Translations under genes and position numbers: made by a program
From: Glacieibacterium arshaanense
GTDB taxonomy: Bacteria > Pseudomonadota > Alphaproteobacteria > Sphingomonadales > Sphingomonadaceae
Direction: 5' to 3'
Assembly (NCBI RefSeq): GCF_004681125.1
Contig: NZ_SIHO01000002.1
Coordinates: forward strand, 372,001-436,000
DNA length: 64,000 bases
Part shown: piece by piece, positions 9,862 to 54,959 of the stretch
Layout: every line of letters starts with the position of its first letter
How positions within the stretch are numbered: the stretch's first letter is position 1
Notes under the pieces: model-generated
Database searches by the model: none
What the model saw: only the letters and a program-made list of their open reading frames with translations
Told to the model about the DNA's origin: nothing

Positions 9862-9867
9862 GATAAA

Positions 9868-9914
9868 GGGCCTCCGGCGGGCAGGGCCTTGGCCCTGCAC
9901 CCGATTTTTGGGGT
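9868..9914. repeat. Half copy of the GCCTCCGGCGGGCAGG palindromic family
   Basis: Left half of the window's main repeat: GCCTCCGGCGGGCAGG followed by a small hairpin (GCAGGGCC-TT-GGCCCTGC) and CACCC. It starts 6 nt after the gdhB stop. The right half is missing and is replaced by the sequence leading to a different inverted repeat at 9956. Confidence 0.8.
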
Positions 9915-14887: not shown

Positions 14888-14914
14888 CTCCGTCTCCCGC
14901 CCTATAGGGGGTGC

Positions 14915-33757: not shown

Positions 33758-34591
33758 ATGCCACACATGCTCGAATTCATGCGCGTTTCGCTCGACTATA
33801 CCGCGCTGGGGCTGTCGCCGGTGGCGCTCGAGGCCGGGCCGGTGGTGCTCCGCTGGTACAGCCTCGCCTATATCGCCGGCATCCTGTTTTCGTGGTGGTA
33901 TCTGATCCGCATGATCGCGAAGGGCGACGCGCCGTACACCAAGCCGCAAGTCGATGACTTCATCACCTGGGCGACGCTCGGCGTCATCCTCGGCGGCCGC
34001 ATCGCCTATGTGCTGTTCTACGACCTGCCGAAGTTCGCCGCCGATCCGCTGTCGATTTTCTACCTGTGGCAGGGCGGCATGAGCTTCCACGGCGGCACCG
34101 CCGGCGTCATCATCGCGGTGATGCTGTATGCCAACAGCCAGAAAATCAGCAAGCTGCGACTGCTCGACTATGTTGCCGTCACCGCGCCGGTCGGCCTGTT
34201 CTTCGGGCGCCTCGCCAACTTCGTCAACGGCGAGCTGTGGGGCCGCGTCACCACCGTATCCTGGGGCATGACCTTCCCCGGCGCCGGCCCGCTGCCGCGC
34301 CACCCGAGCCAGCTCTACGAAGCGGTGCTGGAAGGGCTGCTACTGTTCATCATCCTCAGCCTGATGTTCTGGAAGACCCGCGCGCGGCTGTATCCGGGGC
34401 TGCTCGCCGGGGTGTTCGGCATCGGCTACGGCGCGATGCGGCTGATCGTCGAGCTGTTCCGCGAACCCGATGCGCAGTTGGGCACGCTGTCGACCGGCCT
34501 GACGATGGGCCAGACTTTGAGCCTGCCGCTGTTTCTGGCCGGTGCGTGGTTGATTGCCACGTCGCGCGGTCGCGCGATCAATGAGAAATAA
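33758..34591 (+). CDS. lgt: Prolipoprotein diacylglyceryl transferase
   Basis: Inner-membrane enzyme that attaches diacylglycerol to the lipobox Cys of prolipoproteins. 277 aa, seven or so hydrophobic helices. Seen: GGMSFHGGTAG near 107-117 (catalytic His), GRLANFVNGELWGR near 149-162 (essential Arg/Asn/Glu) and RHPSQLYEAVLEG near 180-192. ATG 33758 after AAAGGGA. Its TAA stop is the first three bases of a palindromic repeat. Confidence 0.96.
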   Translation: MPHMLEFMRVSLDYTALGLSPVALEAGPVVLRWYSLAYIAGILFSWWYLIRMIAKGDAPYTKPQVDDFITWATLGVILGGRIAYVLFYDLPKFAADPLSIFYLWQGGMSFHGGTAGVIIAVMLYANSQKISKLRLLDYVAVTAPVGLFFGRLANFVNGELWGRVTTVSWGMTFPGAGPLPRHPSQLYEAVLEGLLLFIILSLMFWKTRARLYPGLLAGVFGIGYGAMRLIVELFREPDAQLGTLSTGLTMGQTLSLPLFLAGAWLIATSRGRAINEK

Positions 34592-34701
34592 GAGCCTCCG
34601 GCGGGCAGGGGTGACCCCTGCACCCGATTGTTTGGCGCGCTTCAAATGGATGCAGGCCCCCCATTTGCTTACAAAAACTGGCCTGCCCGCCGGAGGCTCT
34701 T
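34589..34701. repeat. GCCTCCGGCGGGCAGG-family nested palindrome, copy b
   Basis: Full element: left arm TAAGAGCCTCCGGCGGGCAG(G), small hairpin GCAGGGG-TGA-CCCCTGC, centre, then right half with an enlarged inner loop and CCTGCCCGCCGGAGGCTCTT. The left TAA is the lgt stop; the right GGAGG and the terminal TTG-forming bases abut the start of the MidA-type gene. Confidence 0.9.
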
Positions 34702-35761
34702 GAACACTCTCGCCGAACAGCTCGCGCGCGAAATTGCCACCACCGGCCCGATGCCGGTGGCGCAATGGATGGCGCGCGCGCTGGGCGATCCGCAGCACGG
34801 ATATTACGTCACGCGTGACCCGCTGGGGGCGGCGGGGGATTTCACCACCGCGCCCGAAATCAGCCAGATGTTCGGCGAACTGATCGGGCTTTGGGCCGCC
34901 GATTTGTGGCTGCGCGCTGGCAGCCCGCGTGTCCGGCTGGTCGAACTCGGTCCCGGGCGCGGCACGCTGATGGCCGACTTCTGGCGCGCCACGGCGAAGG
35001 TGCCGGGGTTTCATGCGGCGACGAGCCTGCATTTGGTTGAAACCAGCCCAGTGCTGCGCGCGGCGCAGGCGCGGTTGCTGCCGGATGCGGTATGGCACGA
35101 CAGTCTGGCGCAGGTGCCAGATGACTTGCCACTGCTGGTCATCGCCAATGAATTTTTTGACGCGCTGCCGGTGCGGCAGTTGCAGCGCACCGCCGCCGGC
35201 TGGCGCGAGCGCATGGTGACGCATGACGGCACGCGCTTTGTCGCCGGTGCCGGGGCGCTGCCGCTCGATGCGCTGGTGCCGCCGGCTTTGGCCGATGCGC
35301 CGGTGGGGTCGGTGTGGGAAACCAGCCCAGCCGCCACCGCAATCGCCGCTGAAATCGGCGCGCGGCTGGCGGCAAGCGGCGGTGCGGCGCTGTTCATCGA
35401 CTATGGCTATACTGGCCCCGCCACCGGCGACACGCTGCAAGCGGTGCGCGCGCACGGCTATGTCGATCCGTTCGCCGATCCGGGTGAGGTCGACCTGACT
35501 GCGCATGTCGATTTCGCGGCACTCGCGGAGGCGGCGGGCACGACCGCGCACGGGCCGGTCGGGCAGGGTGACTTCCTGCTGGCGCTGGGCCTCGCGCAGC
35601 GCGCCGAGGCGCTCAAGGCGCGTGCCGACACACGTGGCCGTGCGCATATCGAAGCCGCGACAGTGCGGCTGACGGTGACGATGGGCGCGCTGTTCAAGGC
35701 GCTGGCGCTGACCGGCCGCGACTGGCCAACGCCGGCGGGATTTGGCACAGGGGCGCCATGA
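34700..35761 (+). CDS. SAM-dependent methyltransferase, MidA/NDUFAF7 family
   Basis: About 353 aa. Family members methylate an arginine on the complex I NDUFS2 subunit in mitochondria; the bacterial role is less clear. Seen: PMPVAQWMARALGDPQHGYYVTRDPLGAAGDFTTAPEISQMFGE near 15-58 and the SAM loop VELGPGRGTLMADFWR near 75-90. There is no ATG before the conserved region; TTG 34700 has GGAGG 4 nt upstream, both the site and probably the start being supplied by the adjoining repeat. ATG 34751 is the fallback but would cut into the conserved start. Overlaps GNAT as ATGA. Confidence 0.87.
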   Translation: MNTLAEQLAREIATTGPMPVAQWMARALGDPQHGYYVTRDPLGAAGDFTTAPEISQMFGELIGLWAADLWLRAGSPRVRLVELGPGRGTLMADFWRATAKVPGFHAATSLHLVETSPVLRAAQARLLPDAVWHDSLAQVPDDLPLLVIANEFFDALPVRQLQRTAAGWRERMVTHDGTRFVAGAGALPLDALVPPALADAPVGSVWETSPAATAIAAEIGARLAASGGAALFIDYGYTGPATGDTLQAVRAHGYVDPFADPGEVDLTAHVDFAALAEAAGTTAHGPVGQGDFLLALGLAQRAEALKARADTRGRAHIEAATVRLTVTMGALFKALALTGRDWPTPAGFGTGAP

Positions 35762-36279
35762 CTATCAGCTACCGCACCGCCACCACCAATGACGCCGCAA
35801 CAATGTCGGCGCTCGGTGCCACGACGTTCGTCGAGACCTTCGGGCACCTTTACAGCGCCGCCAACCTCGAAAAATTCCTCGAAAACCACAGTGCCGCCAA
35901 CTGGGCGACCGAACTTGCCGACCCGGCGTATGCGGTGCGGCTGGCGTTCGATGGCGACCGCGCCATCGGCTACACCAAATTCGGTCCGCCACATTTGCCG
36001 TTCGAGCCTGACGCTGGCCGTGTCGCCGGCGAGTTGCGCCAGCTCTATGTGCTTTCCGGCTTTCACGGCAGCGGCATTGCCGTCCAGCTTACCGATTGGC
36101 TTATCGCCGAAGCCCGCGCCCGCGGCGTGCAGGACCTGTACCTGTCGGTATTCACCGAAAACCCGCGCGCGCAGGCGTTCTACCGGCGCTACGGCTTCTA
36201 CGAGGTCGGCCGCTATGCATTCATGGTCGGCGACCATGCCGACGAGGATCTGGTGATGCGGTGCAAGCTCGATGACTAA
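35758..36279 (+). CDS. GNAT family N-acetyltransferase
   Basis: 173 aa. Acetyl-CoA loop region LYVLSGFHGSGIAVQL near 94-109 and FYRRYGFYEVGR near 140-151 are typical, as is the VETFGHLYS N-terminal segment seen in spermidine/protein acetyltransferase-like members. Start overlaps the methyltransferase stop and its end overlaps pgeF by 8 bp. Confidence 0.87.
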   Translation: MTISYRTATTNDAATMSALGATTFVETFGHLYSAANLEKFLENHSAANWATELADPAYAVRLAFDGDRAIGYTKFGPPHLPFEPDAGRVAGELRQLYVLSGFHGSGIAVQLTDWLIAEARARGVQDLYLSVFTENPRAQAFYRRYGFYEVGRYAFMVGDHADEDLVMRCKLDD

Positions 36280-37036
36280 TCCGCCGTTCCTGACCAGCGC
36301 CGCACTCGCCGGCACCCGCCACGGCTTTCTGGGGCGCGAGGGCGGGGTCTCGACCGGCATCTTCGCATCGCTCAACGTCGGCCTCGGCTCGGGCGATGAC
36401 CGCGCCGCGCTTGCAGAAAACCGCCGCCGCGCCGTCGAAGCCGTGGCACCCGGCGCAACGCTTGTGACGCTGCACCAGGTCCACAGCAATATCGCCGTAC
36501 CGGTCACTGGCGCGTTCGCCGATGATGCGCGCCCGCACGCCGACGCGCTGGTCACCGCGACGCCGGGGCTGGTGCTCGGCATCCTCACCGCCGATTGCGT
36601 GCCGATCCTGTTCGCCGACACGCATGCCGGCGTGATCGGCGCGGCACATTCGGGGTGGAAGGGCACGTTGACCGGCGTCGCTGCCGCCGCCGTCGCCGCG
36701 ATGGAAGCGCTCGGTGCCGACCGCGCCAACATTGCCGCCGCCGTCGGGCCGTGTATTGCGCAACGCAGCTACGAGGTCGATTCGGGCTTCCGCGACCGCT
36801 TTCTCGCCGATGATCCCGAACACGACCGCTTCTTCATCCCCGGCAAGCCCGGCCATTTCCAGTTCGACATCGAAGCCATGGTCGCCAGCCGCCTCGCCGC
36901 CGAGGGCCTGCGCCATATCGAATTGCTTGGACAGGACACCTACGCCCAGCCCGACCGCTATTTCAGCTTCCGCCGCACGACGCATGCAGGCGAGGGCGAC
37001 TATGGGCGGCAATTGTCTGTGATTGCATTGGGTTAA
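36272..37036 (+). CDS. pgeF: Peptidoglycan editing factor / polyphenol oxidase family (YfiH)
   Basis: 254 aa. Multicopper-oxidase-like DUF152 family; PgeF prevents misincorporation of L-Ser in place of L-Ala in peptidoglycan precursors, and related enzymes show purine nucleoside phosphorylase activity. Metal ligands His-Cys-His are visible: LHQVHSN near 67-73, TADCVPILFAD near 108-118, AAHSGWKGT near 126-134. Third gene of a methyltransferase-GNAT-pgeF chain. Its stop TAA is the first three bases of the next repeat. Confidence 0.93.
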   Translation: MTNPPFLTSAALAGTRHGFLGREGGVSTGIFASLNVGLGSGDDRAALAENRRRAVEAVAPGATLVTLHQVHSNIAVPVTGAFADDARPHADALVTATPGLVLGILTADCVPILFADTHAGVIGAAHSGWKGTLTGVAAAAVAAMEALGADRANIAAAVGPCIAQRSYEVDSGFRDRFLADDPEHDRFFIPGKPGHFQFDIEAMVASRLAAEGLRHIELLGQDTYAQPDRYFSFRRTTHAGEGDYGRQLSVIALG

Positions 37037-37170
37037 GGGCCTCCGGCGGGCAGGGCCTTGGGCCCTGCACCCGGGATTTTGCGCCGGTGCATGCAAAGCA
37101 GCGCTGGCCGCAGTGGCACGTCACCAATATTCGGGTGCAGGGCCCAAGGCCCTGCCCGCCGGAGGCTCTA
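37034..37170. repeat. GCCTCCGGCGGGCAGG-family nested palindrome, copy c
   Basis: Full-length copy, 137 bp. Left half TAAGGGCCTCCGGCGGGCAG(G) with hairpin GCAGGGCC-TTG-GGCCCTGC and CACCCGGG; right half begins CGGGTGCAGGGCCCAAGGCC and ends CCGCCGGAGGCTCTA. The left TAA is the pgeF stop. The prs gene begins 90 bp beyond the right end. Confidence 0.92.
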
Positions 37171-37259
37171 CAATTTTGCCCGTTTCAAGCGCGCACCTTG
37201 TTGCCGTTCCATGACAGCGCGGCTATGACGCCCCCATCGGCGGGTCGGGGACACAATCC

Positions 37260-38195
37260 ATGAAAATCTTGGCGGGCAACAGCAATCCCGAGCTTGCTTC
37301 GGCGGTCGCGGCGTATCTCGAACTGCCGCTCACCAAGGCGGCCGTCCGGCGCTTCGCCGATGAAGAAGTTTTCGTCGAAATTCACGAGAATGTCCGCGGC
37401 GAGGACGTCTTCGTCATCCAGCCGACATCGGCACCGTCGAACGACAATCTGATGGAGCTGCTGATTTGCATCGATGCGCTGAAGCGCGCCTCGGCGAAGC
37501 GCATCACCGCCGTCGTTCCCTATTTCGGTTATGCCCGCCAGGACCGCAAAATGGGCCCGCGCACGCCGATTTCTGCCAAGCTCGTCGCCAATCTGATTAC
37601 CGTCGCCGGCGCCGACCGCGTGCTGTCGGTCGACCTGCATGCCGGACAGATCCAGGGCTTTTTCGATATCCCGACCGACAATCTCTACGCCGCACCGGTG
37701 ATGAGTGCCGATATCGAGGCGCGATATGGCGGCAAGCCGTTGACCGTGGTGTCGCCCGACGTCGGCGGTGTGGTGCGCGCCCGCGCGCTCGCCAAGCGCC
37801 TCGGCAACGCCCCGCTCGCCATCGTCGACAAGCGCCGTGAAAAGGCCGGCGAATCCGAAGTGATGAACATCATCGGTGACGTCCGCGGCCGCTTCTGCGT
37901 GCTCGTCGATGACATCGTCGATTCGGCCGGCACGCTGTGCAACGCCGCCGTCGCGCTGACCGCCGCCGGCGCCATCGGCGTCACCGCCTATGTCAGCCAC
38001 GGCGTGTTGTCGGGCGGCGCTGTCGCCCGCGTCGAAGCCAGCGAGCTTACCGAACTCGTCATCACCGATTCGATCGGCGCCGTCGAAGCCGTCCGCGCCG
38101 CGAAGAAAATCCGCACGATGACGATTGCGCCGCTGCTGGCGGAGGCGATGCGCCGGATTTCGGACGAGGCGTCGGTTTCGAGCCTGTTCGACTAA
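37260..38195 (+). CDS. prs: Ribose-phosphate pyrophosphokinase
   Basis: Synthesises PRPP from ribose 5-phosphate and ATP for nucleotide, His and Trp synthesis. 311 aa, family length. Seen: [22 protein letters not shown] near 24-45, [24 protein letters not shown] near 88-111, [14 protein letters not shown] near 127-140 and PRPP loop [16 protein letters not shown] near 214-229. Also a supplier for the DprE/UbiA-type pathway at the right edge, which needs PRPP. GGGGAC precedes ATG 37260. Confidence 0.97.
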
Positions 38196-38265
38196 GGCGC
38201 GCGCGGCAAGCGCTTCGAAGCCCGCGCGGGCTATGCTAGCCTCCTCCGAAAAAAGGGGAGTCCAT

Positions 38266-39144
38266 ATGGCAAGCACGACACGCATACTGGCCGATGGCAT
38301 CTATTTCGGCGAAGGCCCGCGCTGGCATGACGGCCGGCTGTGGTTCAGCGACTTTTACGCGCACGCGGTCAAATCGGTATCGCTGGCGGGCGACCTGCGC
38401 ACCGAATTCACCATCGACGACCAGCCGTCGGGGCTGGGCTGGATGCCCGATGGCTCGATGCTCATCGTCAGCATGACCAAGCGCCAGCTACTGCGGCGCA
38501 CCGCGGACGGCGTCGTCAGTGTTCACGCCGACCTTTCAGGTATTGCGACCTTCCACTGCAACGACATGGTCGTCGACAGCCAGGGCCGCGCGTATGTCGG
38601 CAACTTCGGTTTCAACCTCGATCACGAACTCGAAACGCGCGGTACCGAAAGCGTGTTCGGCGACCACGTCACTGCCAAGCTGGCGCTGGTGGCACCCGAC
38701 GGCAGCGTGTCCGTCGCCGCCACCGACATGCATTTCCCCAACGGCAGCGTCATCACCACCGATGGCCGCACGCTCATCATCGGCGAAACGCTCGCCGGCG
38801 TCCTCACCGCGTTCGACACCGCCCCTGACGGAAGCCTGTCGAACCGCCGCATCTGGGCCCCGACCACACCCGCCATTCCCGACGGCATCGCGCTCGACGC
38901 CGACGGCGCCATCTGGATCGCCAACCCGGTCGCACCGCAGTGCCTGCGCATCGCCCAGGGCGGCAAAGTGCTCGAAATCATCGACACCGGCGACCCGTGC
39001 TACGCCTGCATGCTCGGCGGCGACGACGGCAAGACGCTGTTCATGCTGACCGCCAAGACCTCGGTCGGGCATCATGCGGCCGATGCGCCGCTGGGGCGGT
39101 TGCTGGTGGCGACAGTGAATAGTTCACGGGCTGGAAGGCCGTAA
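38266..39144 (+). CDS. SMP-30/gluconolactonase-like beta-propeller protein
   Basis: 292 aa. Six-bladed propeller of the SMP-30/gluconolaconase/LRE family. Seen: GEGPRWHDGRLWFSDF near 11-26 with the first metal Glu, FHCNDMVVDSQGRAYVGNFGF near 94-114 with the metal Asn, and PDGIALDADGAIWIA near 202-216 with the metal Asp. Lactonase substrate unknown. RBS AGGGGAG. Its stop TAA is the terminal TAA of the following repeat. Confidence 0.88.
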   Translation: MASTTRILADGIYFGEGPRWHDGRLWFSDFYAHAVKSVSLAGDLRTEFTIDDQPSGLGWMPDGSMLIVSMTKRQLLRRTADGVVSVHADLSGIATFHCNDMVVDSQGRAYVGNFGFNLDHELETRGTESVFGDHVTAKLALVAPDGSVSVAATDMHFPNGSVITTDGRTLIIGETLAGVLTAFDTAPDGSLSNRRIWAPTTPAIPDGIALDADGAIWIANPVAPQCLRIAQGGKVLEIIDTGDPCYACMLGGDDGKTLFMLTAKTSVGHHAADAPLGRLLVATVNSSRAGRP

Positions 39145-39190
39145 GAGCCTCCGGCGGGCAGGCCTCAGGCCTGCCCGCCGGAGGCTCTTA
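39142..39190. repeat. GCCTCCGGCGGGCAGG-family perfect palindrome, copy d (minimal form)
   Basis: 49-bp element reduced to the two outer arms, joined as GCAGGCCTCAGGCCTGC. It starts with TAAGAGCC and ends GGCTCTTA. The left TAA is the stop codon of the plus-strand SMP-30 gene, and the right TTA is the TAA stop of the minus-strand astB gene, so the element exactly fills the space between two convergent genes. Confidence 0.95.
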
Positions 39191-40465
39191 GACCAATTCT
39201 TTCAAATCCAGTTCGCCCAACAACGCCGCCCGCGCCGCGCGACACTGCGCCCACAGCGCCGGATTGCCGAGGTCGGCGGGCGCGATAGCTTCGGGCCAAT
39301 GCGTAGCGACCAGCGCCTCCAGCCGGTCGGCCTTGGCGGGCGACATCAGGAAGCGCGGATCGACGGTGGCGGGGTCGGCGACGACGCGCAGTCGCAGGCA
39401 CGCCGGGCCGCCGCCGTTCTTCATCGATTCGCGCACCGCGACGAAGTGCACGCTGCGGATCGGGCCGTTGCCGGCGACCAGGCCGTCGAGATACGCCGCG
39501 ACGCGGGGGTTTTCCTGCGCCTCGGTCGGCAGGATTAGCGCCATGCTGCCGTCGGGCAGCGTCAGCAGTTGCGAGTTGAACAGATATGACGTGATCGCGT
39601 CGTTGAGGCTGACGGCGCTTGCCGGCACTTCGACGATGATGGCGCCGGGCAGCGCTACGGTCAGCGCGGCATAGAAGTCGGCGGGATTTTCGAACGCCTG
39701 TTCGTGGCAGAACAGCACATGGCCGTTGGCCACCGCCACGACGTCATTGTGGAACGCGCCGGCTTCGATCGCCGCGACCGCCTGCTGGACGAACAGCGTG
39801 CGTGCCGGGTCGAGCTGGTTGAGCCGCGCCACGGCTTCGGACGCGCGGCGGCTCTGGCGGGCAGGAAACCGCCCGCCTGGTTCGCCGTAGACGAAGATTT
39901 CGATGCCGGCGGCATCGTGCGCGCTGCCCATGCGCATGTGGTTTGCCGCGCCCTCGTCGCCGAAGACGGCGGGGACGGCGGCGTGTACCGCGAACGCTTC
40001 GCCGCCGAACGCGACGCGCAGTTGAGCTTCGGTGTGGCGGTGCTCGATGCTCCGGTGCGGCATGGTCGACAGGTTGGCGACGGTCAGGTGGCAGCGCCCG
40101 TCGGCGGTGTCGGGGCCGGGCGACACTGTGGCGGCGTTTGCGGTCCACATGGATGACGCCGAAAACACCTGCGCGAATAGCGCCGGATCGGCGGCCCAGG
40201 CGGCGGCGCAGACGGCATCGTCATCTCCTGCAAAGCCCAGTGTCCGCAGCACGGATGCGTCGGGGCGCGGCAGTGGCAGCAACAGCCCCTGCGTCAGCCC
40301 AAGTCCCATCGCGGTGCGCATCTTGCCCAGCCCCTGCAGCGCGGCGGCACGCGGTTTCGACACGCCGCCGGCATTCTTCGCGCTCGCGACATTGCCGAGG
40401 CTGAGCCCGGCATAGTTATGGCTCGGCCCGATCAGCCCGTCGAAGTTAATTTCGACGAGACTCAC
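39188..40465 (-). CDS. astB: N-succinylarginine dihydrolase
   Basis: Second step of the AST pathway: hydrolyses N2-succinylarginine to N2-succinylornithine, CO2 and NH3. 425 aa. Seen: NFDGLIGPSHNYAGLSLGN near 7-25, FGDEGAANHMRM near 167-178, HNDVVAVANG near 240-249, and the catalytic Cys in MKNGGGPACLRLRV near 356-369. GTG start overlaps the astD stop (GTGA). Last gene of the operon; its stop lies in the repeat. Confidence 0.96.
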   Translation of the reverse strand: MSLVEINFDGLIGPSHNYAGLSLGNVASAKNAGGVSKPRAAALQGLGKMRTAMGLGLTQGLLLPLPRPDASVLRTLGFAGDDDAVCAAAWAADPALFAQVFSASSMWTANAATVSPGPDTADGRCHLTVANLSTMPHRSIEHRHTEAQLRVAFGGEAFAVHAAVPAVFGDEGAANHMRMGSAHDAAGIEIFVYGEPGGRFPARQSRRASEAVARLNQLDPARTLFVQQAVAAIEAGAFHNDVVAVANGHVLFCHEQAFENPADFYAALTVALPGAIIVEVPASAVSLNDAITSYLFNSQLLTLPDGSMALILPTEAQENPRVAAYLDGLVAGNGPIRSVHFVAVRESMKNGGGPACLRLRVVADPATVDPRFLMSPAKADRLEALVATHWPEAIAPADLGNPALWAQCRAARAALLGELDLKELV

Positions 40466-44139: not shown

Positions 44140-44179
44140 GCCGCAGCCTTACCGCGCAGCCCGGCAAAACGCCACACGC

Positions 44180-44214
44180 ATTGTGATATTTCTATCAGCC
44201 TGATGTTATTGTGA
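44180..44214. promoter_or_regulatory. ATTGTGA direct repeat upstream of the AST operon
   Basis: ATTGTGA at 44180-44186 and again at 44208-44214 (28-bp period) frame an ATCA-GCC-TGAT palindrome in the 77-bp gap between selO and the M20 gene. The AST operon promoter must be here. No sigma-70 core motif stands out, and the binding protein is unknown. Confidence 0.3.
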
Positions 44215-44216
44215 GT

Positions 44217-45602
44217 TTAGGGCTGTGTGTCCATGGCTTCGCCCATGCGGCGGATCGCGGCGACCTTGGCATCGAGCGGTGCCCAGTCGTCGCGTTCGGC
44301 AATCGCCGCCCAGATGCTCTCGATCTCGTCGATCAGCAGGCTACACGGCGCGGCATCGGCCCAGTAAGGGTGCGCCAGATTATCGGCGGCAACGTGGTTT
44401 TCCAGCGCCTCTGCGAGCGCCGCAAAGCCCGGGTAGACGTAAGTGCCCGCGTTGCGCCGCAGCTTGCCGCCGCGCCAGTCGAACCAGAAGCTGTCGAGAC
44501 CAACGCCCGAAGCTTCGAGTGCGGTCATCAGCGCCACCGCCACCGCGCTGTCCGCCGCAGCATTCAATGGCGCGACGCCCAGCCGTTTGAGCAGCGCCGC
44601 GGTCAGCGCCGCATCATAGCGCGCGCCGAAATCCTTGAGCGCCGGGGTCAGCGTTTCAACGTTGGCCAGCAATCGCAACGCACCCGCGAGCTGGAAGACG
44701 TTCCATTGCAACGCCTCCGCTTGCCGCCCGAAACTGTATAGCCCGTGATGGTCGAAATAGGCGGCAGTGAAGTCCGGGTCCCACACCGGCGCAAAGCGGT
44801 AGGGCCCGTAATCGAAGCACTCGCCGGTGATGTTGATATTGTCGGTGTTGAGCACGCCGTGGACGAACCCCGCCGCCATCATGCCGGCGGCTTGGGTCGC
44901 CGCACCGGTCACCGCATGGTCGATCAGCGCCGCGACCTGCGAGTCGGTATCGGCGATGTCGGGCGCGCCGCCAAAATAGTGGCGCAGCACATAGTCGATC
45001 AGCCGCCGCATATCTTCTGGCAAGTCGAGCGCTGCGAGGCGCTGGAACGTCCCGTAGCGGATATGGCTGTGGCTCAGCCGCACCATCACCGCGCTGCGCG
45101 TCGGTGAGGGTTCATCGCTGCGCGCCAGGTCCTCGCCGGTTTCGATCAGCGAGAAGGTCCGCGACGTGTTCAGCCCGAGCGCCTGCAGCATTTCGGTCGC
45201 CAGCATCTCGCGCACGCCGCCCTTGAGCGTCAGCCGGCCATCGCCCGACCGGCTCCACGGTGTCTGCCCCGAACCCTTGGTGCCAAGGTCGAGCAAGCGA
45301 CCGCGCGTGTCTTCGATTTGCGCGAACAGAAACCCGCGGCCGTCGCCGAGTTCGGGGTTGTAGGTGCGGAACTGGTGGCCGTGATAGCGCAGCGCCAGCG
45401 GCTGCGGCAGACTGCCGGGCAACGGCATGAAGCGCCCGAAATGCGTGCACCATTGCGCATCGTCCAGACCCTCCAGCCCGACTTCGGCCGCGGCACGGTC
45501 GTTGCGGAATCGCAGGATGGTTTGCGGGAAATCGGCGGGTGCCACTGCGTCGTAAAAGCCGTCACCCAGTTCGTGGATGGCGACGCGCGATGTCAGATAC
45601 AC
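44217..45602 (-). CDS. selO: SelO family protein adenylyltransferase
   Basis: Pseudokinase-fold enzyme (YdiU/SelO) that transfers AMP to proteins in the redox stress response. 461 aa. Seen: LALRYHGHQFRTYNPELGDGRG near 69-90, DLGTKGSGQTPWSRSGDGRLTLKGGVREML near 105-134 and FVHGVLNTDNINITGECFDYGP near 246-267 with the active-site Asp. No C-terminal Sec/Cys-x-x-Cys is seen. GTG 45602 overlaps the TetR 3' end by 10 bp, so the two genes are co-expressed. Confidence 0.92.
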   Translation of the reverse strand: MYLTSRVAIHELGDGFYDAVAPADFPQTILRFRNDRAAAEVGLEGLDDAQWCTHFGRFMPLPGSLPQPLALRYHGHQFRTYNPELGDGRGFLFAQIEDTRGRLLDLGTKGSGQTPWSRSGDGRLTLKGGVREMLATEMLQALGLNTSRTFSLIETGEDLARSDEPSPTRSAVMVRLSHSHIRYGTFQRLAALDLPEDMRRLIDYVLRHYFGGAPDIADTDSQVAALIDHAVTGAATQAAGMMAAGFVHGVLNTDNINITGECFDYGPYRFAPVWDPDFTAAYFDHHGLYSFGRQAEALQWNVFQLAGALRLLANVETLTPALKDFGARYDAALTAALLKRLGVAPLNAAADSAVAVALMTALEASGVGLDSFWFDWRGGKLRRNAGTYVYPGFAALAEALENHVAADNLAHPYWADAAPCSLLIDEIESIWAAIAERDDWAPLDAKVAAIRRMGEAMDTQP

Positions 45603-46345
45603 GACAGCATGCGGCCGTTGTCGTCATAGCCATAGGCAGCGCGGACAAAGCGGATGGTTTCGTCGATGATAGCCTGGCGCGCGGCTTCATCGGTGGTCGA
45701 CATGACGGCTTCGATGGCGTTGCCGACGACTGCATAGGTCAGTGCCGAAGCGATCGGAATGTTGAGGTTGGCCGGGCCGCCGTGCTTGGCATAGGCGGCT
45801 TCGTGCTGCTTGGTCGTCCAGGCGCAGACGGTGTCGCGCGAGCTGAGGTAAAAGGGTTCGGCTTCGGGGTTGCCGTGGATGCCGGCGGGTTTGCCCATCT
45901 TGGCGCCAGTGTCGCAGCCGGTGTCGGTGTATTTTTCCCACTCGCGGTGCTGGAACATGAATTCAAAGGCGCGGCGCAGGATGATGCCGGGTTCAAGGTC
46001 TTCGAGCGGGTCGCCCTGCCACATGACCTCGATCATCGATTCGCCGTACATGCGGCCAATGTCGGCGAGCAAATTGCGCTTCGAACCGAAATGATAAAAA
46101 ATCGAGCCTTCCGAAACATCGGCCTCGCGCGCGATATCGGCGGTACCGGTGGCGCCGTAGCCCTTGGTGGCAAACAGCATGTTGGCAGCGGCGAGCACGC
46201 GCTGGCGCGTTTCGGCCGGATCATAACGACGCGCGCGGCTATCCGCCTTCGCGGCGTCGACCTTTACAGCATCGACTACGATGGTCGTTGCACGGCGCTT
46301 GGCCGGCGTCTCTAGTGCACGCGTTGCCACAATGATTCTTCTCAC
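45593..46345 (-). CDS. TetR family transcriptional regulator
   Basis: 250 aa. A 38-residue basic leader, then the DNA-binding domain RQRVLAAANMLFATKGYGATGTADIAREADVSEGSIFYHFGSKRNLLADI near 47-96, and an all-helical ligand domain. Start GTG 46345 or GTG 46327; both are preceded by weak sites. Divergent from an alpha/beta hydrolase and an oxidoreductase, with a palindrome in the gap, so it probably regulates itself, selO and those genes. Confidence 0.88.
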   Translation of the reverse strand: MRRIIVATRALETPAKRRATTIVVDAVKVDAAKADSRARRYDPAETRQRVLAAANMLFATKGYGATGTADIAREADVSEGSIFYHFGSKRNLLADIGRMYGESMIEVMWQGDPLEDLEPGIILRRAFEFMFQHREWEKYTDTGCDTGAKMGKPAGIHGNPEAEPFYLSSRDTVCAWTTKQHEAAYAKHGGPANLNIPIASALTYAVVGNAIEAVMSTTDEAARQAIIDETIRFVRAAYGYDDNGRMLSCI

Positions 46346-46368
46346 CTATCCCCAATCGCGGAGCATAT

Positions 46369-46382
46369 ACTCATAACTGAGT
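46369..46382. promoter_or_regulatory. ACTCA-TAAC-TGAGT palindrome, likely TetR operator
   Basis: Perfect 5+4+5 palindrome in the 92-bp gap between divergent TetR and hydrolase genes. It overlaps an AT-rich CATATAC/TCATAA stretch that could be a -10 region. Size and place fit a TetR-family operator. Confidence 0.5.
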
Positions 46383-46437
46383 CATAGTCAAAAGTTTCTG
46401 AACAGGGCCTTGACCGGCCTCCAACCGGACCAAAACC

Positions 46438-47307
46438 ATGCGCGCCGACACTCCTTATACCGATGGCTGGTACTGGTCGCTCGACGGCCTGCGCCTGCAC
46501 TACCGCGACTATGCCGGCGATTCGAAACGGCCCGCCATCCTGTGCCTGCCGGGACTCACGCGCAACGCCCGCGACTTTGACCGGCTGGCCGAACGACTCG
46601 CGCCCGACTGGCGGGTACTTTGCGCCGACCTGCGCGGCCGTGGCGAATCGGCCTATGCCAAGGATTCGCTGACCTATGTGCCGCTGTCCTACCTGCAGGA
46701 CATCGGCCAGCTGCTCGATTCGGCAGGTGTCGACAAGGTCGTCGTCATTGGCACATCGCTCGGCGGGCTGCTGGCGATGCTGCTGCCGAGCACGCAGCCC
46801 GGCCGCATGGCGGCCGCCGTCATTAACGACATCGGCCCGGTGATCGAAGAAAAGGGGCTGGCGCGAGTCCGTGCCAGTGTCGGCCACGGCGGCCCGTGGC
46901 CGACCTGGGTCCATGCCGCGCGCGACCTCGCCGATCGCAACCCCGGCATCTATCCCAAATGGGGCCTCGAGGAGTGGCTGGTGTTCGCGCACCGCGTCGC
47001 CCGCGCCTCGAGCAGCGGCCGCATCGTGCTCGATTATGACGCGCACATCGCCGACCCGATGCGCTTGCCCGGCGGCGATGCCGGCCATGACATGTGGGCG
47101 GCGCTCGATGCGCTCGCCGACATGCCGGTGCTGTCGCTGCGCGGCGCGCTGTCGGACATTTTTAGCGCCGCGACGCAAAAGGCGATGGCGGCGCGGCTGC
47201 CGCGCCTTAAGACCGCGACGATCGCCAACGTCGGCCATGCACCTACGCTCGACGAAACCGCCAGCACCAAGGCCATCGACGCGTTTCTGGCCGAGCTTGC
47301 AGGCTGA
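46438..47307 (+). CDS. Alpha/beta hydrolase
   Basis: 289 aa. LCLPGLTRNARDFD near 36-49 (oxyanion), CADLRGRGESAY near 61-72, nucleophile GTSLGG near 104-109, catalytic His near VGHAPTLDE in 264-272. No signal peptide. Divergent from the TetR gene and 44 bp before the oxidoreductase. Substrate unknown; could be an ester/lactone made or used in that pathway. Confidence 0.88.
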   Translation: MRADTPYTDGWYWSLDGLRLHYRDYAGDSKRPAILCLPGLTRNARDFDRLAERLAPDWRVLCADLRGRGESAYAKDSLTYVPLSYLQDIGQLLDSAGVDKVVVIGTSLGGLLAMLLPSTQPGRMAAAVINDIGPVIEEKGLARVRASVGHGGPWPTWVHAARDLADRNPGIYPKWGLEEWLVFAHRVARASSSGRIVLDYDAHIADPMRLPGGDAGHDMWAALDALADMPVLSLRGALSDIFSAATQKAMAARLPRLKTATIANVGHAPTLDETASTKAIDAFLAELAG

Positions 47308-47351
47308 CCGTTCCACCGCCAAAGTGCGGCAAATTTTCTGGGGAGATGAAC

Positions 47352-48362
47352 ATGACTGACCGCCACGTCTGGAAACTCGCACGCCGCCCCGTCGGTGACA
47401 TCGCCGACGGCGACCTCGTCTACACTACCGAAGCCATGCCCGTACCCGGCCCCGGCCAGTTCGTACTGCGCGTCATCTACCTGTCGCTCGACCCGACCAA
47501 CCGCATCTGGATGAGCGACCAGGAACAATACATGCCGCCCGTCGAAATCGGCGCCGGCATGCGCGGCGGCGTCTGCGGCCGCGTCGCGGCGTCGAACAAG
47601 GACGGCGTCAACGTCGGCGACCTCTACGCCGGGCTCGGCGAATGGGCGGACTATATCCTGACTGACGGCACCGGCCTCGCGCGCCTGCCCGAACTGCCCG
47701 GCATCACCCTGGCTGAAAGCTTCGGCACGCTCGGACTTGTCGGCCCGACCGCCTATTTCGGCCTGCTCGATATCGGCAAGCCGCAGCCCGGCGAAACCAT
47801 CGTCGTGTCGGCCGCTGCCGGCGGCGTCGGGCAAGTCGTCGGCCAGATTGGCAAGATCAAGGGCTGCAAGGTCATCGGCATCGCCGGCGGCAAGGCCAAG
47901 TGCGACTATGTGGTGAACGAACTCGGCTTCGACGCCTGCATCGACTACAAGTCGCAGGACGTCGGCAAGGAACTCGACCGCCTCGCCCCCGAAGGCGTCG
48001 ACATCAATTTCGAACAGGTCGGCGGCAAGATCATGGAAACCGTGCTGGCGCGGATGAAGCTGTTCGGGCGCATCCCGCTGTGCGGCATGATCTCGCAATA
48101 TAACGACATCGATGGCACCGAGCCGCCGGGCATCTGGACGATGATGCTGATGCGCCGCCTGACCGTGCGCGGCTTCATCGTCACCGACTTCATGCCGCGC
48201 TTCGGCGAGGCCGCGATGGAAATGGCAGGCTGGATGATGACCGGCAAGCTGAAGACGCGCCAGGACATCCGCAAGGGCCTCGAACACGCCGCCGAAACCG
48301 TCAAGGACCTCTACAGCGGCGGCAATTTCGGCAAGCTGCTCGTCGAAGTCACGCCGCCGTAA
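47352..48362 (+). CDS. NADP-dependent medium-chain oxidoreductase (zinc-independent)
   Basis: 336 aa, similar to prostaglandin/leukotriene reductases and curcumin-reductase-type enzymes. Seen: LDPTNRIWMSD near 43-53, GPTAYFGLLDIGKPQPGETIVVSAAAGGVGQVVGQIGKIKG near 131-171 with NADP motif AAGGVG, and the DACIDYKSQ segment. No zinc ligands. ATG 47352 chosen since GGGGAG is spaced 7 nt from it; ATG 47346 is too close. Confidence 0.88.
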   Translation: MTDRHVWKLARRPVGDIADGDLVYTTEAMPVPGPGQFVLRVIYLSLDPTNRIWMSDQEQYMPPVEIGAGMRGGVCGRVAASNKDGVNVGDLYAGLGEWADYILTDGTGLARLPELPGITLAESFGTLGLVGPTAYFGLLDIGKPQPGETIVVSAAAGGVGQVVGQIGKIKGCKVIGIAGGKAKCDYVVNELGFDACIDYKSQDVGKELDRLAPEGVDINFEQVGGKIMETVLARMKLFGRIPLCGMISQYNDIDGTEPPGIWTMMLMRRLTVRGFIVTDFMPRFGEAAMEMAGWMMTGKLKTRQDIRKGLEHAAETVKDLYSGGNFGKLLVEVTPP

Positions 48363-48370
48363 GGGACAAC

Positions 48371-48420
48371 AGCGCCTCCGGCGGGCAGGGGCTAGCCGCT
48401 GCCCGCCGGCGGCCCTTTAA
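48371..48420. repeat. GCCTCCGGCGGGCAGG-family palindrome, copy e (diverged)
   Basis: 50-bp short form. The arms AGCGCCTCCGGCGGGCAGGG and CTGCCCGCCGGCGGCCC have lost perfect symmetry by a few substitutions. Unlike other copies it runs into the coding end of the minus-strand HPP-family gene. Confidence 0.85.
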
Positions 48421-49105
48421 CCCGTTCCGCCGCATGATGCTCGGCGAGTTGCAACAGCGCATCAAGGTCGTCGCGGCTGATGTCGAAGCTGTCGTGCATG
48501 TCGGCGAGTGCGGCATCGATATCGGCGCGCGCCAGCACCCGTTCGCCGGCGACCGGCGGCGGCATCGGCATCGCACGGTGCGGATAGTTGCGGCGCGACA
48601 GCCGGTGGAAGGCGATGCCGGTCGCCACCAGCACCACGGCGTTGAGCCCAACGGGGACCAATGCGAAGCTGTAGCCGGCCGCATGGATCGCCGGGCCGCC
48701 GATGACGGCAATCAGCGCGGTGGCACCGCCGGGCGGGTGCAGACAGCGCAGCAGCGACATGCCGGCGATGGCGGCGGCTACCGCCAGCCCGTCGGCGAAC
48801 GCTGACGGGGCGAGGAACTTGGCGACGGTGATGCCGACCAGCGCGGACACCACCTGACCGCCAATGATCGACCAGGGTTGCGCGAGCGGGCTGGCGGGCA
48901 GCGCGAACAGTAGAACGGTGGAGGCCCCCATCGGTGCAATCAGCAACGGCAGCGCCACGTCGCCCAGGTGCAGCGCGCTGCACAGCGCCGAGGTCGCGGC
49001 AATGCCGATCAGCGCACCTAGGCAGGCAATGGCGCGGTCGCGCGCGTTGGCGCCCGCCAGAATCGGCTGGAACATTTGCCACTGCCGGGCTGTGCGCGCC
49101 TTCAT
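48392..49105 (-). CDS. HPP family integral membrane protein
   Basis: 237 aa with four hydrophobic helices in the first 150 residues, PMGASTVLLFALPASPLAQPW near 52-72 and the family's namesake CLHPPGGATALIAVIGGP near 113-130, followed by a soluble tail with a coiled pattern. HPP proteins are linked to nitrite transport in plants and cyanobacteria. ATG 49105 has GAGGA before it. The last residues GPPAGSG and the stop codon come from the adjoining repeat. Confidence 0.85.
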   Translation of the reverse strand: MKARTARQWQMFQPILAGANARDRAIACLGALIGIAATSALCSALHLGDVALPLLIAPMGASTVLLFALPASPLAQPWSIIGGQVVSALVGITVAKFLAPSAFADGLAVAAAIAGMSLLRCLHPPGGATALIAVIGGPAIHAAGYSFALVPVGLNAVVLVATGIAFHRLSRRNYPHRAMPMPPPVAGERVLARADIDAALADMHDSFDISRDDLDALLQLAEHHAAERVKGPPAGSG

Positions 49106-49175
49106 GCCGTCCTCGAAGCTTGCATCGTCACCGGCGTTGTAGCGCGGTGGCGCCACGTGTCGCGCGAAATGCGCG

Positions 49176-49706
49176 TCAGCTTGCCGGCGGCAGGTCCGAA
49201 ATCACCCCGAGCGAGATTTTGCGCGCGCCGTCGGGCCGTGTCTTGAACACCAGTACCCAATTGCCGGTTTCGGTGGTCGGTGCCTTGGTCTTGGCATCGG
49301 TGAAGGTATAGGCATAGGTGGCGCGGTATACCGCCAGATCGCCTGATGCCGCGATGTCGACGCTTTCGTCGCTGACCGCCAGCTTGGCGTTGGGGTCGGA
49401 GACCTGCGCCTTGGTGGCGATCAGGTCGGCTTCGGGGCCGACGACATTGGGCACGCCGTGCATCATGCTGACATATTCGGGCGCGTCATAGCTGACGGCC
49501 TTGGCAGCATCGCGGGCGTTGAATGCCGCGACCAACCCGGCGACATCGGCCTTTACCGACTCGGCGACGGCGGCGGTATCGACTTTTGCGGTATCGGTCG
49601 CTGCTGCCGCGACAGGCGCGCTGGTTTCGGCCGGCTTGTTGCATGCACTCAGGGCCAGCATCAGCGCCATCGCTGCAACTGTGCCGGCCAGTTTCATCGT
49701 CTTCAT
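49176..49706 (-). CDS. Lipoprotein with SnoaL/DUF4440-like domain
   Basis: 176 aa. Signal peptide with lipobox LSAC near 19-22, an Ala-rich linker, then an NTF2-like domain (about 58-176): VKADVAGLVAAFNARDAAKAVSYDAPEYVSMMHG and WVLVFKTRPDGARKISLGV. Small-ligand isomerase or binding fold, no function known. Starts at 49706 or 49697 both keep the lipobox. Confidence 0.8.
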   Translation of the reverse strand: MKTMKLAGTVAAMALMLALSACNKPAETSAPVAAAATDTAKVDTAAVAESVKADVAGLVAAFNARDAAKAVSYDAPEYVSMMHGVPNVVGPEADLIATKAQVSDPNAKLAVSDESVDIAASGDLAVYRATYAYTFTDAKTKAPTTETGNWVLVFKTRPDGARKISLGVISDLPPAS

Positions 49707-49830
49707 CGGTTTGGCCCCCATGGCTGATGCCTGGAGTGTTTGCTCAATTGACGTAAACGTCAAGCGGGCGTGACAAGCGCGTCGCGACATGCTTCAACGC
49801 CATCAAATCATAACCACCGGGGAATCAGCC

Positions 49831-50604
49831 ATGACCTTTCCACTACCCAATGTTTCGAATGATCTGACCGGCCGCGTTGCGCTGGTGACCGGTGCCTCGT
49901 CGGGGCTTGGCCTGCGGTTCGCGCATGTGCTTGCTGCTTGCGGTGCCAAGGTCGCGCTGACCGGCCGTCGTGTCGACCGGCTTGACGCCGCTGTCGCCGA
50001 AATCACTGCCGCCGGCGGCACTGCCGCAGCGTTCGCGCTCGATGTCACCGATGCCGATGCACTCGTCGGCGTCGTCGCCGCGGTCGAAGCCAAGTTCGGG
50101 CTGATCGATATCCTGATCAATAACGCCGGCATCCCCGACGCCCAGCGCGCCCACAAGATGCCGCTCGACCTCATCGACCGCGTCCTCGATACCAACGTCC
50201 GCGCGCCCTACATCCTGTCGTGCGAAGTCGCCAAGCGGCTGATCGCCGCTGAAAAGCCCGGCCGCATGATCAACATCGCCTCGGTCGCGGCGTTCGATTA
50301 TTCGGGCGGCGGCGCGGCGCTCTATTCGATTTCCAAGGCCGCCGTCATCCGCATGACCGAGGCGCTCGCGGTCGAATGGGCGCGCTTCGACATCAACGTC
50401 AACGCCATCGCCCCGGGCGCCTTCTCGACCGAAATGCTCGACGGCATGCTGGCGCGCATCGGCGACATCAGCGAACATTTCCCGCGCAAGCGCATCGGCC
50501 AGCCGGCGCAGATGGACAGCACCTTGCTGTACTTCCTGTCACCGGCCTCGGAGGCCGTGACCGGCACCTATATCAAGATCGACGACGGGCAGGGCCGGCG
50601 CTGA
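49831..50604 (+). CDS. Short-chain dehydrogenase/reductase
   Basis: 257 aa classical SDR. TGASSGLGLRFA near 17-28, NNAG near 93-96, catalytic Ser near SVA in IASVAAFDYSGGGAALYSISKAA with Tyr-x3-Lys near 162-166. ATG 49831 is preceded by GGGGAATC. Substrate unknown; no neighbour gives a pathway. Confidence 0.9.
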   Translation: MTFPLPNVSNDLTGRVALVTGASSGLGLRFAHVLAACGAKVALTGRRVDRLDAAVAEITAAGGTAAAFALDVTDADALVGVVAAVEAKFGLIDILINNAGIPDAQRAHKMPLDLIDRVLDTNVRAPYILSCEVAKRLIAAEKPGRMINIASVAAFDYSGGGAALYSISKAAVIRMTEALAVEWARFDINVNAIAPGAFSTEMLDGMLARIGDISEHFPRKRIGQPAQMDSTLLYFLSPASEAVTGTYIKIDDGQGRR

Positions 50605-50610
50605 GGTAGA

Positions 50611-50742
50611 TAAGGGCCTCCGGCGGGCAGGCCTTGGGCCTGCACCAATTTGTTGGCGGCGCGGACAACAGCCCGCGCTGCAAATGATAGCAACGACCCG
50701 AACTATTGGTGCAGGCCCAAGGCCTGCCCGCCGGAGGCTCTA
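50611..50742. repeat. GCCTCCGGCGGGCAGG-family nested palindrome, copy f
   Basis: Full copy, about 132 bp. Left half TAAGGGCCTCCGGCGGGCAG(G) with GCAGGCC-TTG-GGCCTGC; right half GGTGCAGGCCCAAGGCCTGC followed by CCGCCGGAGGCTCTA. Starts 6 nt after the SDR stop; its right-end CTA gives the TAG stop of the minus-strand DUF3313 gene. Confidence 0.92.
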
Positions 50743-51441
50743 CTTAAGCCGCTGCCCTTGCTTGAGCGTTTCGGGCACCGGCGACGCGTCCTTGAGCGCC
50801 ACCACCCCGCTGGCGGCAGTCCGCGCCCAGCGGCTCGCGAGTGAATTGAACTCGGCGGTGTTCGAGACAGTCGTCGCCTGGCCGCCCGGGCCCTGTGTCT
50901 GGCGCCGGTCGGCGACGCTGGCGAGCAGCGCCTTGGTCTGCGAATCGCGCACTTCCATGATCAGCGTCGCTTCACCCGCGTTGGTGGTGAAGCTGCGCGA
51001 GCGGCCGGCGCTCAGCGTGTCGGGGGCGTTGACGAACAGGTTGACCACGCCGATGCGCACCCGCAGCACGTCGGGGCCGGCGGCGGTCACTACCTTGAAG
51101 CCGGCGCGTTCGAACTCGCGCGCGAAAATGTCGGTGGTGTTGGTTGACACAGTGGCGAGGATGCGCTCGGCATCGGCTTCAGTGACGCGGGTGCGGGCCC
51201 GCGACCCGCTGCCGCTGTTGACGCTGCGCAGCCAGTTGTCGCGGAAAGCCACCTGCGGCTCGTCGAGCATGACCTTGGTATAGGGGCGGAAATCGGCACC
51301 GGGCAGCAGGAACGCCGAATCGAACTGGCGGGCGTTGACCTCGACCAGTCCCGACCAGCTTTCGGGTGAGTTTGCCGCCTGGGCGGTGATGGCGGCGCTG
51401 CCGATCAGCAACGCCGCTGCAATCGTCGGAAACATGCGCAT
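50740..51441 (-). CDS. DUF3313-like exported protein
   Basis: 233 aa. Signal peptide 1-23 (ends AAITAQA). Mature region with FDSAFLLPGADFRPYTKVMLDEPQVAF near 41-67 and an RVRIGVVNLF strand near 127 matches DUF3313 proteins, whose function is unknown. No lipobox Cys. The TAG stop is in the repeat terminus. Confidence 0.8.
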   Translation of the reverse strand: MRMFPTIAAALLIGSAAITAQAANSPESWSGLVEVNARQFDSAFLLPGADFRPYTKVMLDEPQVAFRDNWLRSVNSGSGSRARTRVTEADAERILATVSTNTTDIFAREFERAGFKVVTAAGPDVLRVRIGVVNLFVNAPDTLSAGRSRSFTTNAGEATLIMEVRDSQTKALLASVADRRQTQGPGGQATTVSNTAEFNSLASRWARTAASGVVALKDASPVPETLKQGQRLK

Positions 51442-51498
51442 GGGGTTATCCTCGAGCCAAGTCTGTTGGGCTCAGGAGGCCATGCGCCCGCGGCGATG

Positions 51499-52023
51499 TC
51501 AATTGCCGAGCGGTCGCACCAGCGGCGCCAGATACGTCATGTAATCGAACTTGCCGATGTTGACCCCCTCGCGGCGCAGGATGGCGTAGGCGGTGACGAG
51601 GTGGAAATAGAAGTTCGGCAGCAGCCAGTCATCGACATAGGCGGCGCCGTCGAGCTTGATGCCCATGTTGCCCGGCAGGCTGATGACCTTCTCGCTTTCG
51701 AGCAGCGCATCGGCGCCATCGAACGCCGCCAGCCGCGCGCGCGTCGCGGCGATAAGCGTCGCACCCTCGGCGAGCGTCGCCGGCAGTTCGGTCGGCACCG
51801 CTACGCCGGTCGCCCAGTCGAGGAAGTTGTTCGGCTGGTGGCAGGTAAACAGGATCTGGTTGGCCAGCGGCAGCATGTCATCGGCCAGCTTGCAGCCGAT
51901 CAGCGCGCCGGCGTCCTTGCCCGCGTCCGCCCATTGCGCCTGCGCCTTGTCGAGCAGGCCCTGCAGCGTGGCGAGGCGTGAATCGAAGCGACTGATGATG
52001 GCAGCGATGCGCGGACCGGACAT
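51499..52023 (-). CDS. DUF1993 family protein
   Basis: 174 aa soluble helical protein. ADDMLPLANQILFTCHQPNN near 47-66, VISLPGNMGIKLDGAAYVDDWLLPNFYFHLVTAYAILR near 113-150 follow the DUF1993 (DinB-superfamily-like) pattern. ATG 52023 after TTGGGGAA. Function unknown. Confidence 0.87.
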   Translation of the reverse strand: MSGPRIAAIISRFDSRLATLQGLLDKAQAQWADAGKDAGALIGCKLADDMLPLANQILFTCHQPNNFLDWATGVAVPTELPATLAEGATLIAATRARLAAFDGADALLESEKVISLPGNMGIKLDGAAYVDDWLLPNFYFHLVTAYAILRREGVNIGKFDYMTYLAPLVRPLGN

Positions 52024-52091
52024 GATGAATTCCCCAATTTGGTGTTGCGCGCTTCAACTGGGGGTGGGCGCTTTGCTTGTCAATGCAAGCG

Positions 52092-52187
52092 AAGAGCCTC
52101 CGGCGGGCAGGGGCTTGCCCCTGCACCCATAATTTGGCGCGCTTCAATCGGGTGCAGGGGCTAGCCCCTGCCCGCCGGAGGCCCTTA
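52092..52187. repeat. GCCTCCGGCGGGCAGG-family nested palindrome, copy g
   Basis: Full copy, 96 bp: left arm with GCAGGGGC-TT-GCCCCTGC and CACCC; right GGGTGCAGGGGCTAGCCCCT and CCGCCGGAGGCCCTTA. The right terminal TTA is the TAA stop of the 70-residue membrane protein. The left end lies 69 bp upstream of the DUF1993 start, the only copy with an end in a 5' region. Confidence 0.92.
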
Positions 52188-54866: not shown

Positions 54867-54959
54867 AGAGACTCCGGCGGGCAGGGGTGACCCCTGCACC
54901 CGGTTGAAGAGCGCCAAACAAATGGGTGCAGGCCTCAGGCCTGCCCGCCGGAGACTCTT
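54867..54959. repeat. GCCTCCGGCGGGCAGG-family nested palindrome, copy h
   Basis: Full copy with both arms carrying the compensating pair GACTCC / GGAGTC in place of GCCTCC / GGAGGC (GAGACTCCGGCGGGCAGG and CCTGCCCGCCGGAGACTC). The matched change on both arms suggests the stem is under constraint or copied from one arm. Starts 6 nt after the preceding stop. Confidence 0.92.

Follow-up and report, generated by a model that had tools for sequence, protein, structure and literature searches.

Bacterial miniature inverted-repeat transposable elements (MITEs) are short, non-coding, bounded by terminal inverted repeats and present in many copies, and REPINs consist of two inverted repetitive extragenic palindromes (REPs), i.e. 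hairpin units arranged around a short loop. The closest described systems are two groups of tagged REPs, for which one study (PMC3733652) reports that (i) the termini of the GTAG-tagged elements, high-copy extragenic palindromes found near gene 3′ ends, often supply a TAG stop codon to flanking open reading frames (ORFs), and (ii) most convergent copies of the CGTC-tagged elements (CGTC-1 of S. wittichii) lie less than 20 bp from both 3′ ends, the unidirectional ones being placed near the upstream 3′ end. Here we describe a palindromic repeat recognised in a 64-kb stretch of the Glacieibacterium arshaanense genome (contig NZ_SIHO01000002.1, positions 372,001 to 436,000; hereafter the window), which is concentrated at gene 3′ ends and whose terminal bases form part of the stop codons of adjoining genes. 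Repeat termini that act as stop codons are an already known kind, published for the GTAG REPs, and the surprise is limited for this reason; new in the present case are the lack of both the GTAG and the CGTC tag, a genome without a REP-associated tyrosine transposase (RAYT), and stop codons formed mainly at the junction T^AA (the caret marks the gene-element boundary and AA is taken as the element end, although in single cases the A at −1 may belong to either the repeat or the gene).

The genome holding the window (G000, 3.26 Mb) contains 459 exact matches to the arm of the element and none to the reversed pattern used as a control. Across the 59 genomes searched, further matches were detected in two genomes of the same genus (G001, 242; G002, 280) and in one of another genus (G021, 33), the remaining 55 giving 0–2 each. 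The detailed analysis was performed on a 780-kb sample of G000, composed of the window together with 36 segments of contig C1 that surround the arm matches listed first. This sample holds 142 of the 459 exact arms, in 69 complete units and 19 single arms, which after scaling by 459/142 corresponds to about 220 complete units in the whole genome. Gene ends were assigned by a gene caller trained on the sample itself, not taken from annotation.

As judged from the complete units (the 19 one-armed copies were excluded from the context counts), 36 are located between convergent genes and 32 between tandem genes, with only one in a divergent gap and none within a gene. The units adjoin 104 gene 3′ ends, 95 of which are within 13 nt of the element or inside it, with the stop codon exactly at the junction in 38. 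Altogether, 64 of the 69 units lie within 13 nt of a stop codon, as compared with 4872 of 60238 possible insertion points (8.1%) in repeat-free gaps, or 5611 of 63753 (8.8%) when the occupied gaps were added with the repeat removed (p ~1e-63 and 2e-61, respectively). Divergent gaps account for 20935 (34.8%) and 21035 (33.0%) of the same two sets of points, against 1/69 for the units (p ~1e-11 and 6e-11). The initial annotation had offered two readings, namely that the element prefers stop codons as targets or that its presence at gene ends is selected for, and the enrichment beyond the general scarcity of intergenic space, a comparison set beforehand, is strongly supported. Placement cannot separate the two proposals, because the position at 3′ ends and the near-absence from divergent gaps fit both of them.

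The convergent gaps from which the element was removed have a median length of 4.5 nt, versus 10 nt for element-free convergent gaps, and 26 of the 32 tandem units lie closer to the stop upstream than to the start downstream. The single arms are less strictly placed than the units: a gene 3′ end is the neighbour of 14 of the 19 (up to 13 nt away in 12 cases), and a gene start that of the other five. In G001 and G002, whose copies are partly orthologues of those of G000 and thus not wholly independent, 35 units were assigned (14 convergent, 20 tandem, 1 divergent, 0 intragenic; seven copies at contig edges were excluded), and 43 of the 48 adjoining 3′ ends fall in the element or no more than 13 nt away from it, 14 of them at −1. 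Several draft contigs of these two genomes terminate at or in repeat copies, so adjacent gene ends are often missing from the assemblies. Of the 33 matches in G021, 30 had loci, three of which were duplicates, and two arms were present in each of three loci; when these were inspected by hand with the gene model of G000, 28 of the 30 distinct arms were found to face a gene 3′ end, 22 of the 30 at a distance of up to 30 nt. The G021 elements (loci L297–L326) have the same arm core and different inner hairpins (AGGGGCGAGGCCCCTGC), often with a T-rich stretch after ACCCG, and both arms are present in only three of the fetched loci.

The distance between the stop codon and the element peaks at −1, a value taken by 26 of the 88 ends that fall in the range −2 to 13 (p ~2e-11 versus an even spread). 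Among the G000 ends we identified the junctions T^AA (23), TA^AA (3), TG^AA (3), stop^AA (2) and T^AG (6); the other ends include three further forms at −1, seven stops inside the element, 48 at 2–13 nt and nine beyond this distance. The 48 ends of G001 and G002 gave T^AA 13 times, TA^AA and TG^AA once each, stop^AA twice and T^AG three times, besides one other form at −1, one "stop, N^A", two stops inside the element, 19 at 2–13 nt and five beyond. A TAA triplet spans the junction at 22 of 37 ends with the stop at the junction (one end with N was dropped), at 12 of 47 ends with the stop 4–13 nt away, and at 3 of 34 ends facing a gene start. Since this triplet is concentrated where the stop coincides with the junction, its T is assigned to the gene. 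T^AA outnumbers TA^AA, TG^AA and stop^AA, which keep a stop codon equally well, and this points to a preferred junction. Stop codon usage beside the elements (TAA 42, TAG 34, TGA 28) is shifted as compared with that elsewhere (TAA 114, TAG 146, TGA 350). A gene whose reading frame continues into the element gains a short tail and is ended by a TGA or TAG in the inner hairpin (RASGGQT, KASGGQA and KGPPAGSG, at L042:18340-18433, L056:13692-13768 and window positions 48392-48416).

The locus of lgt is the one at which both sides of the element could be compared with an uninterrupted arrangement. A 112-bp copy (copy a, AAGAGCC...GGCTCTT, 34590-34701, core 34591-34700; the two-armed copies are given without strand) separates lgt from a Methyltransf_28 gene. 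The TAA stop of lgt (34589-34591, plus strand) takes its T from the gene, AA being read as repeat, and the TTG start of the methyltransferase gene (34700-34702, plus strand; gene 34700-35761), which was placed by N-terminal alignment with relatives, consists of the TT of the repeat followed by G. Excision of the copy leaves AAATGAAC, in which the flanks join as AAAT^GAAC, so that lgt ends ...INEK-TGA and the next gene begins ATG-AAC in an ATGA stop/start overlap. In a search with Lgt, the titled genomes pointed to sphingomonads, Sandaracinobacter neustonicus heading the list (61%) and an uncultured Sphingomonadaceae bin reaching 66%, in a list from which records of the genome itself may be excluded. 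The two genes are adjacent in 71 of 80 loci, and the next start, partly extrapolated, falls no more than 16 nt past the lgt stop in 57 of these 71 (median +1); a 4-nt ATGA or GTGA overlap is found in three relatives (L069, L075, L085). With the ancestral state taken from these other genera, it appears that the AA of the element made the TAA stop of lgt and its TT the TTG start of the neighbour.

The remaining window copies show the same arrangement in different forms. The pgeF gene (Pfam Cu-oxidase_4) has its TAA stop at 37034-37036 (plus strand), the last base of which opens a 134-bp copy (37036-37169; RNA fold of 37030-37178: −119.6 kcal/mol, z −12.3). The compact palindrome of copy d (39144-39188) lies between the TAA stops of the SMP-30 gene (39142-39144, plus strand) and astB (39188-39190, minus strand), and fills the entire stop-to-stop space, i.e. 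it is wholly common to two convergent genes, as had been stated. A second compact copy (48371-48416) begins 8 nt past a stop at 48362, and a minus-strand gene (48392-49075) ends inside it at TAG; another copy (50613-50741) is located 8 nt past the stop of an SDR gene at 50604, and its other end gives T^AG in the TAG stop of a DUF3313 gene (50740-50742, minus strand), T coming from the gene and AG from the repeat. Further copies were identified from sequence and fold at 52093-52185 (93 bp), which ends in the TAA stop of a 70-aa gene (52185-52187, minus strand), and at 54867-54958, 6 nt past a stop at 54860; a single arm (9867-9902, plus strand) lies 5 nt past a gene stop. The initial annotation had the positions of all six named stop codons right, as confirmed by the sequence and the gene caller (Pfam supports five of the six genes, the 70-aa gene being without a match), and the three copies at 8, 8 and 6 nt agree with its statement that others start 6–10 bp after a stop. 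Its claim that the whole TAA or TAG is the repeat terminus has to be narrowed: the stop codons are located there, but the repeat contributes only A, AA or AG, and the T is the gene's.

A complete unit consists of (i) an outer arm, (A)AGRGCCTCCGGCGGGC, (ii) a self-paired inner stretch, e.g. AGGCCTGAGGCCTGC or AGGGGTGACCCCTGC, (iii) ACCC, (iv) a variable loop and (v) the mirror image of the preceding parts. The outer arm begins AARGCC... and the mirror arm ends TT. A logo over 156 ends gave A at position 0 (97%) followed by G, A at −1 in 79%, and a weak preference further out. At least six uninterrupted pairs are present in the inner stretch of 114 of the 121 parsed arms, which fall into 31 sequence types. 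In 17 of the 53 units parsed on both sides the inner stretch has the same sequence on the left as on the right, hence a single arm can form its own hairpin; a single arm folded alone was unremarkable (z −0.8), while six of the seven two-armed window copies gave RNA folds with z values from −5.7 to −13.6. Full units are 45–187 bp long, with lengths clustering near 45, 78, 92 and 125–134 bp. The widest arm pair (L034:14653-15437) has its arms 785 bp apart, with an AT-rich interior in GC-rich surroundings and an ORF of ~125 codons (about 14895-15272, by eye), perhaps a cargo gene carried between the arms.

The element thus resembles REPs in being high-copy, extragenic and hairpin-forming, intrinsic terminators in providing a stable GC-rich hairpin after the stop, REPINs in having two inverted hairpin units around a loop, and MITEs in being short, non-coding, multicopy and bounded by terminal inverted repeats. 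It differs from the GTAG REPs in that there is no positioned GTAG tag (GTAG occurs between −8 and +3 at 15 of 138 ends, with no such column in the logo), in its stop, which is mostly T^AA, and in the length of its full units. CGTC was found at 0 of 138 ends. A separate, CGTCATCCCGGC-type repeat was observed nested in the loop of this element in a relative (L240); the CGTC-type repeat has two matches in the G000 sample, at distances of 61 and 62 nt to a stop, a number too small for use as a control. Unlike REPINs, the element has long paired outer arms with variable inner hairpins and resides in a genome without a RAYT (PF01797). From typical MITEs it is set apart by the lack of a clear target duplication and of a visible parent transposon, for which no systematic search was made. 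An Rfam comparison of window positions 34000-56000 returned six matches, all microRNA hairpins below their gathering scores, and the 14-mer of the arm, searched as text in the papers covered, gave no match.

Two other classes of repeats were considered and set aside: DNA uptake signals, as the sample holds no intragenic copy, and attC-like integron sites, given that the arms are near-invariant and the copies spread genome-wide.

We consider it about an even chance (roughly 0.5) that the element represents a palindromic REPIN/MITE-like family, amplified in one genus, whose insertion or survival at stop codons is explained by ends that restore them. According to this explanation, the element would have spread by insertion, presumably a transposition-like event, and would be found at gene 3′ ends since its ends rebuild them. 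Entry after the T of any stop codon would restore TAA from the element's own AA; entry into an ATGA stop/start overlap would allow the TT end to rebuild a TTG start; and where the junction falls within coding sequence, the inner hairpin could end translation seven codons on by a TGA or TAG of its own. The A at −1 would then belong to the element, the cut after T would reflect a preference of the moving machinery, and the stable RNA hairpin may be tolerated or useful only past the last codon. In favour of this account are the arm counts, the contexts of the units, the T^AA junctions, the lgt and pgeF loci, the agreement of the protein end in 18 of 21 resolved pairs (see below), the short convergent gaps left on removal of the element and the inner hairpins. 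More tentatively, and with some doubt on our part, the element might be regarded as a mobile palindrome built to heal cuts, whose AA/TT ends, combined with a cut after the T of the stop, restore TAA, TAG or TGA stops as well as the starts of ATGA overlaps, with spare hairpin stops, permitting costless entry into the tightest junctions.

Several observations weigh against this explanation. A target duplication of 2–8 bp was not found, and direct repeats of 1–8 bp sought at several offsets gave nothing clear; TNA is present on both sides in 15 of 104 units, seven of which match versus 3.5 expected (p 0.03, in a test made post hoc to the logo). Should the A at −1 come from the gene, the main class would read TA^A; the peak would remain and its exact base would move. 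The Y1/RAYT transposase domain (PF01797) has no match in G000, as compared with matches in 5 of 14 control genomes, and mobilisation by a RAYT was rejected on this ground. Nor was a parent element seen, although no systematic search for transposases was made. The ORF of L034 was dismissed as an autonomous parent, as it was not recognised by eye as a transposase, without a family search.

Comparison with G001 and G002 adds to these reservations. Both flanks could be aligned for 17 complete units, and the relative also carries the element at all 17, so no recent insertion was caught and the empty state at lgt rests on other genera. The arm is lacking in G001 next to the compared flank at L040:3484 (a single arm), L040:17468 and L050:14090, but other DNA is present there and none of the three is a clean empty site; no clean same-genus empty site was found among the sites compared. 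The SMP-30/astB site is rearranged in G001 and may, as judged by eye, hold decayed arms. It had been suggested that orthologous loci be examined for altered last residues. Among 21 resolved pairs (22 adjoining 3′ ends, one unresolved), where the relatives also carry the element, the protein ends at the same residue in 18 and differs in three (L042:18340 left, L064:2664 left and window 48371 right), and the stop-to-element distance differs in 12 of the 21. Some junctions therefore arose from later change and not from insertion.

For pgeF, 36 relatives were matched and the loci of 29 were compared; 28 of these 29 proteins stop at −1 to +4 residues relative to the end of the window protein, which argues that the gene was neither cut nor noticeably lengthened by the element. 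The stop codons of the 29 relatives are TGA (14), TAG (11) and TAA (4), and the arm, searched as an exact 11-mer, was within 150 nt in none of them. The positions of the element are shared between the species of the genus while the interiors differ. With flanks 83–96% identical, the relative's interior is in 12 of the 17 units closer to a G000 copy at another locus than to its own orthologue, in a comparison that favours the paralogue (best of 68 paralogues in two orientations, versus one orthologue). This may reflect exchange between copies, by gene conversion or re-insertion. Second palindromic repeats of the GTCATCCCGGCGAAGGCCGGGACCC and CATTCCCGCGCAGGCGGGATTCC types were also noticed, nested in element loops of the relatives at L203, L240 and L260, the G000 loop being shorter.

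A different and rather unlikely explanation is that the element acts as a bidirectional terminator or mRNA 3′-end stabiliser whose insertion is indifferent to stops, selection retaining the copies at the ends of transcription units. The very stable folds of the two-armed window copies, the ratio of 36 convergent to one divergent unit and the proximity to the upstream stop in tandem gaps are consistent with such a role, as is the enrichment of T in the 8 nt after the stem (2.6 vs 1.4). Zymomonas mobilis belongs to the same order as the organism of the window. A study of its transcript ends gives convergent sites as 34% of the termini at predicted intrinsic terminators and 7.5% of the remaining termini (PMC7566282), and inverted repeats just past stop codons are described as common in E. 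coli, mostly as parts of intrinsic terminators, in PMC6060812. However, at least five T residues in the 8 nt after the stem are present at only 8 of 138 ends, and a simple terminator scan flagged only one site within a window copy (34609-34625; overall 8 vs a shuffle mean of 14.9). Moreover, according to PMC4824070, the ribosome represses an E. coli terminator almost completely when this is located within a few bp of the stop codon, and selection by itself would not lead one to expect that T^AA outnumbers TA^AA, TG^AA and stop^AA.

Erosion of the spacer, by which the element lands downstream and deletions draw it up to the last position that keeps a stop, is in our opinion unlikely. The observed classes of junctions (−24/−25, −2, −1, 0, 4 and more) are those that preserve a stop codon. 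At L042:18340 the protein of G000 runs into the element and terminates there with RASGGQT, while in the relative a TGA of the gene itself closes the frame 7 nt ahead of the element, and the junctions at L058:12274 right and L058:4428 are at −1 versus +8. On the other hand, the flanks at lgt join into an intact ATGA overlap without loss, and T^AA exceeds the equally viable TA^AA and TG^AA.

It is improbable that the element serves translational control by a hairpin near the stop, as with the E. coli REPs, for which PMC12306157 describes control by hairpins less than 16 nt from the stop. The 95 of 104 ends within 13 nt or inside the element favour such a role (the same source counts 446/4072 E. 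coli REPs within 15 nt and, for an earlier study, 260/496 proposed regulators), but its use at so many unrelated genes would presumably carry a cost. Plain scarcity of intergenic space, to which the coding density of the sample (0.90) might appear to lend weight, is hardly credible, being refuted under both null sets by the 64/69 units near stops (vs 8.1–8.8%) and the 1/69 in divergent gaps (vs 33–35%).

The element described here is an example, backed by counts, of a repeat, selfish or domesticated, that resides at the stop codon itself, with a simple rule, T^AA, for the safety of the site. In the comparison of the filled and empty states at lgt, the stop and the start codon alike appear to have been rebuilt, and the species compared present a repeat whose position is kept between them while its interior changes.

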